From Morchella semilibera (Eukaryota; Ascomycota; Pezizomycetes; Pezizales; Morchellaceae): 64,000 nucleotides of DNA. The DNA is taken from positions 4,867,973-4,931,972 of the forward strand of contig WBVU01000003.1 of NCBI GenBank assembly GCA_009192285.1. The letters run 5' to 3'. A program made the position numbers and the translations under genes. Within the stretch, counting starts at the first letter, position 1, and the number at the start of each line of letters is the position of its first letter. The notes below the pieces were generated by a model, which did not search any database, was not told the origin of the DNA, and saw nothing but the letters and a program-made list of their open reading frames with translations. Shown here in pieces: positions 4,182 through 62,161 of this stretch.

Positions 4182-7100
4182 AGACCACTGTTTATCATAG
4201 GAATGTCGGATGAATTGTTTTGTGGTTGGGACGAAGGAGTACTGTAAAAAAAAAGCCATTACCTATTTCTAGGTTTGGGAGGCATCATCTGGTAGCGGTA
4301 TCATGTAGGTAGTCGGTTGGCTGGTTTGTCCGTTTGATTGTTTTGTTGGTATCATCATTAATTCTGTTTGATCCGTTTGTCTGGCCCTTTTTTTTTTTGC
4401 TTTTTTTGCTTTTTTGCTACTTTTATTTTTTAATTAATCAGATTTTGCCTACTTATTACCTACCACCCATACATAGCATGTCTAGGGTTGCGTGCCCTTT
4501 TCTCCACGCCAGAAGATTTGGTGAACCCGAGAGTCTGGAACCTAGTCATGCAATGCACCCCGGATGTTCCAAAACAGGCTAACCGTTATAACTTAAGGGC
4601 TAATTTTTTTCCTTCCATGTATCCAGAGTGTTATGGAAGTATTAAAGGTCCAGCTCGTAAAGTTATTTTACCCATACAAGCGGAACTCTCTAGAAAGGAC
4701 TCCCGTCCTGGACAGGGCGATTGGCTGTCATGGGTGCAGTGCGGGCTTGGCCGCCCTGACTCAGTAGGCCAACCAGATAGGCCTGAGGTGGTGTTCATAA
4801 ATATGAATACATAGGACCTGTTCGGTCTGAATAGGTTGCAATTCAAACAAAAACACCTCCGGAGGTAGGTGATTGTTTTATTAGGCCCAATCAATGGATT
4901 TTGTCGATAGCGTCTTGGCAGGATTAAAGTTTAGAAGGGAAGTTGGGCAATGGTTACACGCAGAACCAAAACTTCAAGATTCCAGCCGCAAGAGATCCGC
5001 AACCGTTTGAAACGCTTCAGGTGCATAGGGTGCAACGTCATTATACCTCCCACCTTGGTCATTTATAACTCTTATTCTTGTCTCAGAGAAATAGGCATGT
5101 ATTTGGTCTAGACCACAAGTGTGATTTATTATGGCGGCTGGCCGCCAGATCTGGCCCACCACACAAACGGCTAGTTGTGCATGCATACCAGCGCATAGTG
5201 GGCGCGGCCGTGATAAACAAACATGAAACGAGTACGAGAAACGTTAGTAGAGGGTTCCGTTAGCTATCGGTGAAGTTCCCTGAAGTGCAACAAGCGGGCA
5301 GTTGCCAAATGATTTTCTGCTGTTTAGGGATCGCTATTGTGCCAAGTCAGCTGTTGTCATGGTAGAGCCCTTAAAAAAACTTCCGCTATCCTAACAGAAC
5401 TTTTAGATACTCATGGCAACAACCTGAAAAAGATCCCGCACAGTCGATACCGGGCGTTGCAGAATCCCTCTAGTCTAGAATTTGTTGGTACCGAAATGGA
5501 ACTCACAGTGTGGTATTTAATAATTAATGACCTTAAGAGTTCTCGGTGTTGCTGCTGACATTGGTGTTGCTGCTGACATGTGGCAGATCCGTGTTTAGGG
5601 GCATAATGAAAAACATGCCTAGAACAGTAACAGTCTAGAACTAGAATATTATCAACATGCGGTCTTGTTGGTAACGAGATATGGGTAATTCGGTGTGGAA
5701 GCTTTCCCCGTCCGAGACATTGGCTGCAGCGGCTCCATCGATGTAGGGATCTCCCTTGCCTGAAGCTAGTGTGCTACAAAGGCACTCTGAAGCTGTTGTA
5801 ACTAGAAGAAAACCAGCCTAGAACTCTGAGATAATTTTGTTGGTACTGGAGCTTACGCAATGATTGGTATGATAGGTAAGTACGAAACCTGAGAACCGTG
5901 GTAGGGCTGTGAGATGGGCCAATTTCTCCATTTCTCCTTTTTAGCTTATAATTAGACTGTATTGTGGGTTGTCAAAATCACCCGGACGCCTGGTGCAAGG
6001 CGCGCCCCCAAAGCTGAAAACCGGTATTAACTAGGCTGGCGAGTATTTCTTTGGGCTGTTAAACCGTAGCATCATACCCGTTGCGTCCGGATAATTTTGA
6101 CAAACCGCAATAACTGTGTGTATCTTATCAGTTGAATCAGTGATACAATAGAATATGCACATTTCAAATAAACCATAACTCATGCCTCCGAGTTGTATCG
6201 TGTCTTCAGCTTCTACTACCGTTGTAACAAGCCGATATTTCAGCTTTAAGATGTATCTCCTGCAGCTAGCTGCTGATTATCAGATACATGTTCCCTTTAG
6301 GTTGACCAGCTTTACTATATCATATCTCTCGTACAATCCCCTATTTCCTCTCTGGGTTGGTTTAATTCTACTTGTTGCGACTTCCTTAATTCCCACCTTG
6401 TCACGTAGTCGCGGGCATCACTAGAGGGTTCCTAAACACACAATATGAGAGTACAGCCTAACCTTCAGGGCTAAGTTTATTGATTACATGCCTCTGCGGC
6501 CGTGACGACGGCGGATATCGCAGTATCCAGTAGGTATTCTCCATATTGTTCGATCGCGACTACTTAACGCACTTCCAGCCTTATATTAGCTGTTACTCTC
6601 GCCAGAGGGCATGTTATAATAAGAAATCCTATGTAAGTACATGTAGGTACATCCCCCTGGTTTTTATTTTCATAACAAAAATTAACAACGTAAGATACCG
6701 CTAGTATCCTAGCCTTCATGGATGTAGGTCTGAGTATTTCAAATTAAATGGCATGGATTTGTTACAAATCCCAGCCCTCGAATTCTAGAATAGTAAGCGA
6801 CATATCTAGTAATTCGACCTCGGTACTAGAACCATGCAAGAATTTGGAATTCCACCCTGTAGTTGTATTATCTGAAATCCACATCATCAAATATCGTGCA
6901 AGTTCGGCTCGGGATTTCATAAGCAGTAGCATATTTGTTTGTTTAGTCAAATCCCCACTTGCACGGCCATACTGCGATAGGTGGTTAAGCGAGATGGGGA
7001 GCTGTCAATTCGTGGATCGGCACTAGTGGCTCCGTATTACATGCATACATGTAGCTAAGTACATGTATGTAGTGTGTAATTATGGGAACCACAAGGAATG

Positions 7101-7280
7101 AGAAATCCCGTAAGGGACAAGTATAAAGATCCACTTACTATCCACTCCATTAGGGACAACAACGTCATAGACAGTCGACGGAAATCACCACTTCGTTAAA
7201 ATATCATATCCTATAAGAACAGTCTTCCCCCCCCCCCGCTCACTCCCTCAATACCACATCAACCCCCAACAAAAAAAACA
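4182..7280. other. gene-free, repeat-bearing spacer
   Basis: 3.1 kb with no supportable gene. It contains poly-T near 4389-4415, a TA-flanked inverted-repeat element at 5960-6112 (listed separately), three TACATGTA palindromes (6638, 7046, 7060) and a C run at 7218-7228 just before the next gene's leader. Open frames at 4488-4814 and 6748-7026 have no domain. Confidence 0.5.
5960..6112. mobile_element. 153-bp MITE with long terminal inverted repeats and TA ends
   Basis: The left arm 5960-5989 and the reverse complement of the right arm 6083-6112 match over 30 bases with about 5 differences, mostly C/T. Shared core: TTGTCAAAAT followed a few bases later by CCGGACGC. Each end carries TA (TA-TTG on the left, CAA-TA on the right), and the flanking bases are ACTG on both sides, as expected for insertion at a TA dinucleotide. 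The element is too short to encode anything. The structure fits a non-autonomous Tc1/mariner (Stowaway-like) MITE. Confidence 0.75.
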
Positions 7281-61168: not shown

Positions 61169-62161
61169 GTAGTATTATAGTCAACCTATGGTTCATATAT
61201 TCCTTTTATTCAAATAATAGAGCTGTCTTTTCTTAAGATCTTGCCTTAAGGTACTCTAGGTTAGACCAGACCCAGAACCAGGCCCTGTGGCCGGGCCCCG
61301 GTATCAACAATGTGGCACTACGAATGTGAACTTGACCCGTCTTGGTTGGTTAGTAATAATCATTATTAGAAGAATCCGGTTTATAGAGGTAAATTACATG
61401 TATTGTAATTAAGGGCCCGTTTGGCAACTAGACAAGGCGGAGTCTCCAGGCCTTAAGTTATACGGCTGTACCTATATGCCACTATTGGGGTTGCGATGAA
61501 TTATCGAGAGTATGCTACTAGTGTCACTATCGAGTCTGCTACTATCGGGGTCCCAGTGATTGTAGAGTTAGTACATGCCCTCGTTCCCTGCCCAGCGAGC
61601 TCACCACCCACCGAGTGCAGCACCCAATTCCCGCTTTAGCGGCCATCTCACACTCGGTAGGTGGTGAACTCGCTTGGTGGGGGGTGAGGTACTATGCATT
61701 CCAGGCTTTTGTATTTACCTGTTTCAGGTTCACCCGCACCCCGCCATAAGGAGCCCGGCGTGCTTGATAAGGAACAGAATTTGAAGATTGCCATGCCTCG
61801 ATATAGAGCAAGCAATAATTCATGGGAATTCTCTGAATAGAGTACATATATCCCTGCTACCCCCTGTTCCTATATAAAATAAATCTATGAACCAGGAATT
61901 AACAAAACGGGCCCGGTTATGCAGGTCCCTTATAGCGAGGTACGAGACACAAACCCACGGCCCGAGCAACGATTGCGTGCCCCAATGCCAAGCTTTACTC
62001 CATTTTTTTCCCCCCCACTTTTCTTTCCACCCCTCACCCCACCAAGCGGTGGGCCTGTTTTGATTTTTACTTAACCGTGCCATCTTCGCTGGTTGTCTGT
62101 TCTTTTCCGACGACCTAGCCAGGCGACTATACGAAGGAAAAAATCTACAACCTGCTAAATC
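61169..62161. other. intergenic region with a hairpin element
   Basis: 1.0 kb: 3' flank of the SART1 gene, TACATGTA at 61395, a 79-bp inverted repeat (61595-61673) and a pyrimidine-rich promoter before the next start. Confidence 0.5.
61595..61673. repeat. 79-bp inverted repeat (23-bp arms)
   Basis: The left arm 61595-61617 (GCGAGCTCACCACCCACCGA plus GTG) pairs with 61651-61673 at 21 of 23 positions; both mismatches are transitions. A second small hairpin, CCGCTTTAGCGG, lies inside the 33-bp loop. Not associated with a coding end, so not a simple terminator. Confidence 0.8.

Follow-up and report, generated by a model that had tools for sequence, protein, structure and literature searches.

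A highly iterated palindromic octamer in the non-coding DNA of Morchella semilibera

Why does a single eight-letter palindrome, TACATGTA, recur so often in one stretch of the Morchella semilibera genome, and what might keep it there? The stretch, hereafter the window (64 kb; positions 4,867,973 to 4,931,972 of WBVU01000003.1, part of contig C19 of a 23-contig assembly), had previously been interpreted from its letters alone. That sequence-only reading reported 33 exact copies where about one would be expected by chance, placed them outside exons and often near gene starts, and offered a binding site and a mobile microsatellite as possible explanations. We confirm that the observation is real and far larger than the window. 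The copies are enriched, specific to the exact word, symmetrically flanked, closely paired and located outside predicted coding sequence (CDS), mostly beyond 250 bp of genes. The leading interpretation, which we hold tentatively, is that TACATGTA is the binding site of a dimeric DNA-binding protein.

The palindrome is over-represented genome-wide

A recount of the window gave the 33 exact copies that had been claimed, 32 of them at the coordinates listed in the sequence-only reading and one, placed there at 39679, starting at 39678. The estimate of about one copy by chance was equally sound: dinucleotide-preserving shuffles of the window (n = 100) contained 0.72 copies on average and 3 at most, none reaching 33, and Markov models predicted 0.67 (order-1) or 1.48 (order-3). 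Measured against a Markov background, as the reading had proposed, TACATGTA tops the z ranking of strand-merged 8-mers in the window (order-3 model).

The assembly as a whole (56.76 Mb) holds 22,206 copies, about 0.4 per kb on average, against 3,723 of the composition-matched reversed palindrome ATGTACAT, which served as the control word; some of these sites are counted twice owing to the parallel contigs C9/C10, C12/C13 and C21/C22. Normal counts elsewhere in the genome, which the reading had named as grounds for abandoning its claim, did not appear, and in being exact and far above its composition-matched expectation across the genome TACATGTA resembles a highly iterated palindrome. The paired contigs run alongside each other with slight offsets that change along the way, a pattern that an assembly of two haplotypes or strains might give, and C9 and C10 are identical across the 9.8 kb compared. 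Density is uneven, at 0.52 per kb in the window, 1.0 per kb in the 30 kb that follow it (30 copies) and 0.24 per kb in sixteen 10-kb stretches taken from the 1-Mb mark of contigs 1–20 (three contigs were too short and the duplicate L017 was dropped; contigs 21–23 lie outside the sample).

Enrichment is specific to the exact word and extends into its flanks

In 215,344 non-N bases, TACATGTA occurs 70 times against 2.7 expected (order-3), and the remaining 15 TACNNGTA words occur 0 to 8 times each. Among the 8-mers tested in predicted non-coding DNA it again ranks first by z (68 copies vs 2.5 expected). Allowing up to one mismatch, the genome contains 60,359 matches to TACATGTA and 45,702 to ATGTACAT; the mean per one-mismatch word (24 words) is 1,590 for TACATGTA (38,153/24) and 1,749 for the neighbours of ATGTACAT.

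The preference continues outward on both sides. Counted outward over the 200 sides of 100 copies, A is disfavoured at the first flanking base (+1; 13%), T occupies +3 in 61% and A occupies +4 in 47%; in eight control palindromes, T occupies +3 in 29%. These symmetric flanks extend the word to TANNTACATGTANNTA, a pattern present at 3,317 of the 22,206 sites (14.9%), compared with 251 of 3,723 (6.7%) for the extended control. On either side, TA is also in excess at 4 and at 8 bp outward; the left and right TAs at 4 bp are uncorrelated (both in 12 of 100 copies, with 37 left and 33 right).

The window alone had suggested that one-mismatch words lie at background level, a view overturned by their excess in a larger sample. 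In 182,590 bases predicted to be non-coding, the 24 words together number 129 where 74.3 are expected, a ratio of 1.74 that is second among 48 palindromes and thus high but not unique (GTACGTAC, 1.96; CATGCATG, 1.63). The excess is biased towards transitions (67 vs 25.3 expected; transversions, 62 vs 48.9), with a transition ratio of 2.65 compared with about 0.9–1.7 in six control palindromes (highest for ATGTACAT, 44 vs 25.5), and transitions reach at least twice the order-3 expectation at every one of the four independent core positions. The neighbours share the flank preference in weaker form, with T at +3 in 40–42%. We read them as decayed copies, roughly one for every two exact copies, over an ordinary background. 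Two-mismatch words (872 vs 775 expected) were uninformative, as controls vary equally.

Copies lie mostly outside coding sequence and away from gene boundaries

The copies in the window, all exact matches and without assigned strand (strand '.'), are as follows.

6638..6645, unstranded, copy 1
7046..7053, unstranded, copy 2, 14 bp from copy 3
7060..7067, unstranded, copy 3
10013..10020, unstranded, copy 4
11541..11548, unstranded, copy 5
13573..13580, unstranded, copy 6
13695..13702, unstranded, copy 7
16664..16671, unstranded, copy 8, ending a short GGTACTTGTA tandem array (16642-16671)
21994..22001, unstranded, copy 9
22197..22204, unstranded, copy 10
22825..22832, unstranded, copy 11
23342..23349, unstranded, copy 12
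23588..23595, unstranded, copy 13
23614..23621, unstranded, copy 14
26775..26782, unstranded, copy 15
26828..26835, unstranded, copy 16
26841..26848, unstranded, copy 17
31555..31562, unstranded, copy 18
33574..33581, unstranded, copy 19
34841..34858, unstranded, copies 20 and 21, paired at 10 bp with GG between them
36328..36335, unstranded, copy 22
38933..38940, unstranded, copy 23, probably intronic (CDS in the gene model)
39678..39685, unstranded, copy 24 (previously placed at 39679)
39811..39818, unstranded, copy 25
39860..39867, unstranded, copy 26
48147..48154, unstranded, copy 27
54875..54882, unstranded, copy 28
55062..55079, unstranded, copies 29 and 30, paired at 10 bp with AG between them
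57570..57577, unstranded, copy 31, probably intronic within an SPT8-like gene (CDS in the gene model)
58767..58774, unstranded, copy 32
61395..61402, unstranded, copy 33

Placement relative to genes was assessed over 245 kb with crude gene models from the third version of a home-made hidden Markov model (65 genes); the second version (47 genes) had placed no copy within 250 bp upstream of starts and had missed a 766-aa open frame. Predicted CDS holds 3 of 100 copies. Two of these, at 38933 and 57570, had been assigned to introns by the sequence-only reading, and the model, which calls them CDS, seems to read through introns there; the third lies in locus L011. The avoidance of exons is real, but one-mismatch words share it (9 of 137 in predicted CDS), and it is therefore no special mark of TACATGTA.

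Copies had also been said to sit near gene starts, which applies at a distance and fails close by. Within 250 bp of predicted genes they are scarce, with 4 in 13.1 kb upstream of starts (0.31 per kb) and 3 in 15.4 kb at stops; between 250 and 1000 bp the counts are 37 over 27.9 kb upstream (1.32 per kb) and 27 over 33.8 kb downstream. The shortage in leaders may reflect avoidance of upstream start codons, as TACATGTA carries ATG on both strands. Intergenic density falls from divergent (1.23 per kb; 13 in 10.5 kb) through tandem (0.97) to convergent (0.68; 15 in 22.1 kb) arrangements. Repeat DNA contained none of 70 copies (24.4 kb), and 22 kb of non-coding repeat DNA likewise held 0; as a mark of the palindrome this is weakened, given that one-mismatch words are absent there too (0 of 131) and the repeats represent few families.

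Close pairs are not decamer expansions

Start-to-start spacings of 6, 8 and 10 bp occur 501, 100 and 606 times genome-wide, compared with 90, 4 and 37 for the control word. Per site, 10-bp pairs are enriched (2.7% vs 1.0%) and 6-bp pairs are not (2.3% vs 2.4%), the 6-bp control word itself containing TACATGTA. Both 10-bp pairs reported in the window, at 34841/34851 and 55062/55072, are real; the expansion of a decamer, TACATGTAGG, that they had been taken to suggest is unsupported. The inner dinucleotides of the 606 pairs (TACATGTANNTACATGTA) are varied, with GG or CC in 163 (89 + 74), and just 1 of 30 comparisons finds an inner dinucleotide equal to an adjacent outer one (15 pairs, 11 of them from loci fetched by the GG/CC pair pattern). 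The pairs are therefore not tandem decamer duplications, and TACATGTAGG lacks the tandem copies with a constant spacer that define a decamer microsatellite.

A dimeric DNA-binding protein as the leading interpretation

The exact palindrome, its symmetric extended flank and the 10-bp pairing fit a dimeric factor. TACATGTA would then be the centre of a larger palindromic site close to TANNTACATGTANNTA, dispersed through non-coding DNA and recognized by a putative transcription factor or general chromatin-organizing factor; protein binding, the dimeric state and selection preserving a share of the copies are all what we infer. Of the two possibilities in the sequence-only reading, the binding site thus stays in front and the microsatellite, in its decamer form, falls away.

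Several observations weigh against a binding site. Overlapping copies spaced by 6 bp are common (501), which such a site would not lead one to expect. No core position is tolerant of change, and the transition-biased excess of neighbours resembles mutational decay of an exact word. One-mismatch words are equally or more biased upstream (38 in 27.9 kb vs 21 in 33.8 kb at 250–1000 bp) and follow the same intergenic gradient (1.71, 0.97 and 0.54 per kb in divergent, tandem and convergent arrangements), so that the gradient is no proof of promoter function. Finally, no candidate binding protein was found, the homeodomain search being one for PF05920. The Irx family of TALE homeodomains is described in passages of PMC3520976 as preferring TACATGTA. 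The sole PF05920 (KN-type, TALE) match in this genome, at C14:782200, reads NQVSNWFINARRRR when spliced by eye and has WFINARRR in its recognition helix; among solved structures it lies closest to PKNOX1, TGIF and Meis, with no Irx chain among 23 matches. Homeodomains of the Meis/TGIF type read TGTCA rather than TACATGTA, and those of Irx have another residue in the recognition helix than the C14:782200 protein.

Possible excision scars of a Tc1/mariner transposon

The principal alternative, which we consider doubtful, is that a Tc1/mariner-type transposon left most of the copies behind as excision scars. An element with CA...TG ends that inserts at TA and duplicates it could on exit leave TA-CA-TG-TA, which is TACATGTA, a 6-bp addition, and repeated visits to neighbouring TAs would yield spacings of 6, 8 and 10 bp. 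The identical word is named as the Tc1 excision footprint of Caenorhabditis elegans in passages of PMC3520976. The genome has 69 matches to the Tc1-type transposase domain DDE_3, and ends were inspected at 8 of these loci. Four (L029, L034, L036 and L069) have TA-CA...TG-TA ends, so that TA plus two terminal bases per end plus TA of a resident element does spell the word; L035 has CT...AG ends, and L028, L030 and L068 yielded none bounded by TA. The L034 end has 211 matches genome-wide at up to 3 mismatches, among them miniature inverted-repeat transposable elements (MITEs) with similar ends and related Tc1 ends.

The scar interpretation also accommodates the TA-centred flank preference, the pairs at all three spacings, the transition-biased excess of neighbours and the clustering of copies at nearby TAs: another copy is started by 16 of 214 TAs within 8 bp of a copy, compared with 42 of 1,959 at 129–256 bp (pairs counted from both strands). 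A lattice of TANN units interrupted by insertion should show direct agreement of the NN dinucleotides across the site, and the tests of this were mixed. Among the first 100 listed TANN...NNTA sites, direct agreement was 16 vs 8.3 expected (p 0.005) and palindromic agreement 10 vs 10.5, as if a lattice had been interrupted; 100 sampled copies gave 12 direct agreements vs 6.3 expected, and in control DNA the direct-agreement ratio was 2.5 for TANN-TA-NNTA and 1.1 across a gap of 8 bp. In 74 isolated copies, however, direct agreement was weak (7 vs 4.5) and palindromic agreement as strong (9 vs 5.4).

The insertion preference of the resident family is harder to reconcile with the copies. Outward from 38 L034/MITE ends (from 20 fetched loci, 4 ends without intact TA being kept), C stands at +1 in 32, A at +2 in 25, T at +3 in 19 and A at +4 in 15. 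The family thus inserts at GTAC, whereas C follows TACATGTA at +1 in 26%, and just 5 of 100 copies lie between the G..C flanks expected of its scars. The two sets of flanks agree in T at +3 and A at +4 but not in C at +1 and A at +2, which rules out the L034 Tc1/MITE family, the one examined in numbers, as the main source; with ends inspected at 8 of the 69 DDE_3 loci, another family with looser targets might still be responsible. Four of the 38 MITE ends adjoin TACATGTA, which follows from a preference for CAT beside TA (13 of 38 ends, 11 with intact TA) and from TACAT in non-coding DNA being TACATGTA in 26% (196 of 750). Further points against scars are that TACTAGTA, expected from the CT...AG element at L035, is not enriched (3 copies vs 3.4 expected); that 6-bp spacing is as frequent per site in the control (90/3,723 vs 501/22,206), with the reservation about that word given above; that non-coding repeat DNA holds no copy, though it lacks one-mismatch words as well; and that 22,000 scars would be extraordinary. 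TACAGTA and TACTGTA, the scars that a 3-base stagger should leave, have 21 and 25 copies in 245 kb.

A stronger version, in which a Tc1/mariner family with relaxed targets (NNT(A) on both sides of TA) recorded about 22,000 cut-and-paste events across intergenic DNA and every exact copy is a scar, seems unlikely to us; if true, the abundant TACATGTA motif of Phytophthora would also need re-reading.

Several elements were noted along the way. Loci L048–L067 carry short elements of roughly 85–115 bp with ends like TACAGCGGTAGGTAATAAGTG or TACAGCGGTGGGTAATAAGTC, which insert at GTAC and prefer CAT beside TA. The Tc1-type element at L029 sits in a palindromic target, TGTAGG-TA-CCTACA. The element's end pattern is matched at 13 places in the genome, exactly at 3 of them; of the 11 fetched, 7 continue outward into the same sequence and hence do not mark element ends. 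A further possible element, of 897 bp, lies at L014 6586-7482; its CA...TG terminal repeats are bounded by TA and mismatch at 3 of 20 positions, and T stands at +3 outward of each end.

DNA-level processes and slippage as less likely explanations

A DNA-level process, such as modification, repair or conversion bias, might keep the exact palindrome frequent without any transcriptional function, as discussed for cyanobacterial palindromes. TACATGTA does resemble HIP1 in being an exact, very frequent octamer whose near-miss words are not comparably enriched; nothing here pointed to a modification enzyme for it, no search having been aimed at one, and we regard this explanation as improbable. Least probable of all is slippage of simple sequence (a TANN lattice or the hexamer TACATG, with the decamer microsatellite as one form) that happens to yield a palindrome: TACATACA and TACCTACA are enriched too in predicted non-coding DNA, TACATGTACATGTA is frequent and TA recurs at 4 and 8 bp, but in that DNA the inverted junction (68) outnumbers tandem TACATACA counted over both strands (35), the 10-bp pairs are not tandem duplications, the left and right TAs are uncorrelated, and in the window Tandem Repeats Finder at its default score reports a single array that touches a copy (16642-16671).

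Other features of the window and sampled loci

Domains encoded in the window include an SPT8 propeller, adenylosuccinate synthetase, biotin-carboxylase, carboxyl-transferase and VLRF1, and the gene models have short GT-AG introns, features that point to a filamentous ascomycete. At 13830-21133, biotin-carboxylase and carboxyl-transferase genes flank an acyl-CoA-dehydrogenase-like gene (named by eye from its translation), an order resembling a leucine-degradation (MCC/IVD) cluster. The VLRF1 domain (PF18826) lies at 40589-41713, in a gene that we take to be a Vms1/ANKZF1 homologue. Inverted repeats in the window, 25 of 48 examined, showed nothing bearing on TACATGTA. Elsewhere, L019 and L020 contain 4.5 and 4.2 kb of N beside repeat families of about 80% identity, possibly centromeric.

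Comparison with known systems

Judging by the titles and abstract beginnings of the literature matches, we found no account of a TACATGTA motif in a fungus; the matches that contain it as a whole word all concern Phytophthora. The nearest bacterial counterpart, HIP1 of cyanobacteria, is likewise an exact palindromic octamer frequent genome-wide, but its word is GCGATCGC and it is discussed together with DNA methyltransferases (PMC4390886), whereas TACATGTA is AT-rich, eukaryotic and avoids CDS. The Tc1 footprint (passages of PMC3520976) is the same TA-centred word, and CA...TG Tc1-type elements reside in this genome; the flanks differ from the insertion sites of the family examined. The Irx target in the same source is also identical to TACATGTA, the genome's one PF05920 homeodomain being instead nearest PKNOX1/TGIF/Meis.

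The closest precedent is in Phytophthora, where passages of PMC3520976 describe TACATGTA as an abundant promoter motif (motif-1) correlated with infection-stage expression, propose its binding by a homodimer, and raise and doubt a Tc1 footprint as the alternative; passages of PMC3597505 recover the same word as M93. There as here, one palindromic word is very abundant in non-coding DNA near genes. Phytophthora is an oomycete, with motif-1 tied to infection-stage expression and RXLR genes, whereas the host here is a fungus, and the flank extension and the 6- and 10-bp pairing seen here are not described in those passages. With 22,206 sites, the octamer would be either a very widely used cis-element or a readable archive of transposon excision, and since work on the unrelated Phytophthora takes the identical word for a promoter motif, the choice between the two matters there too.

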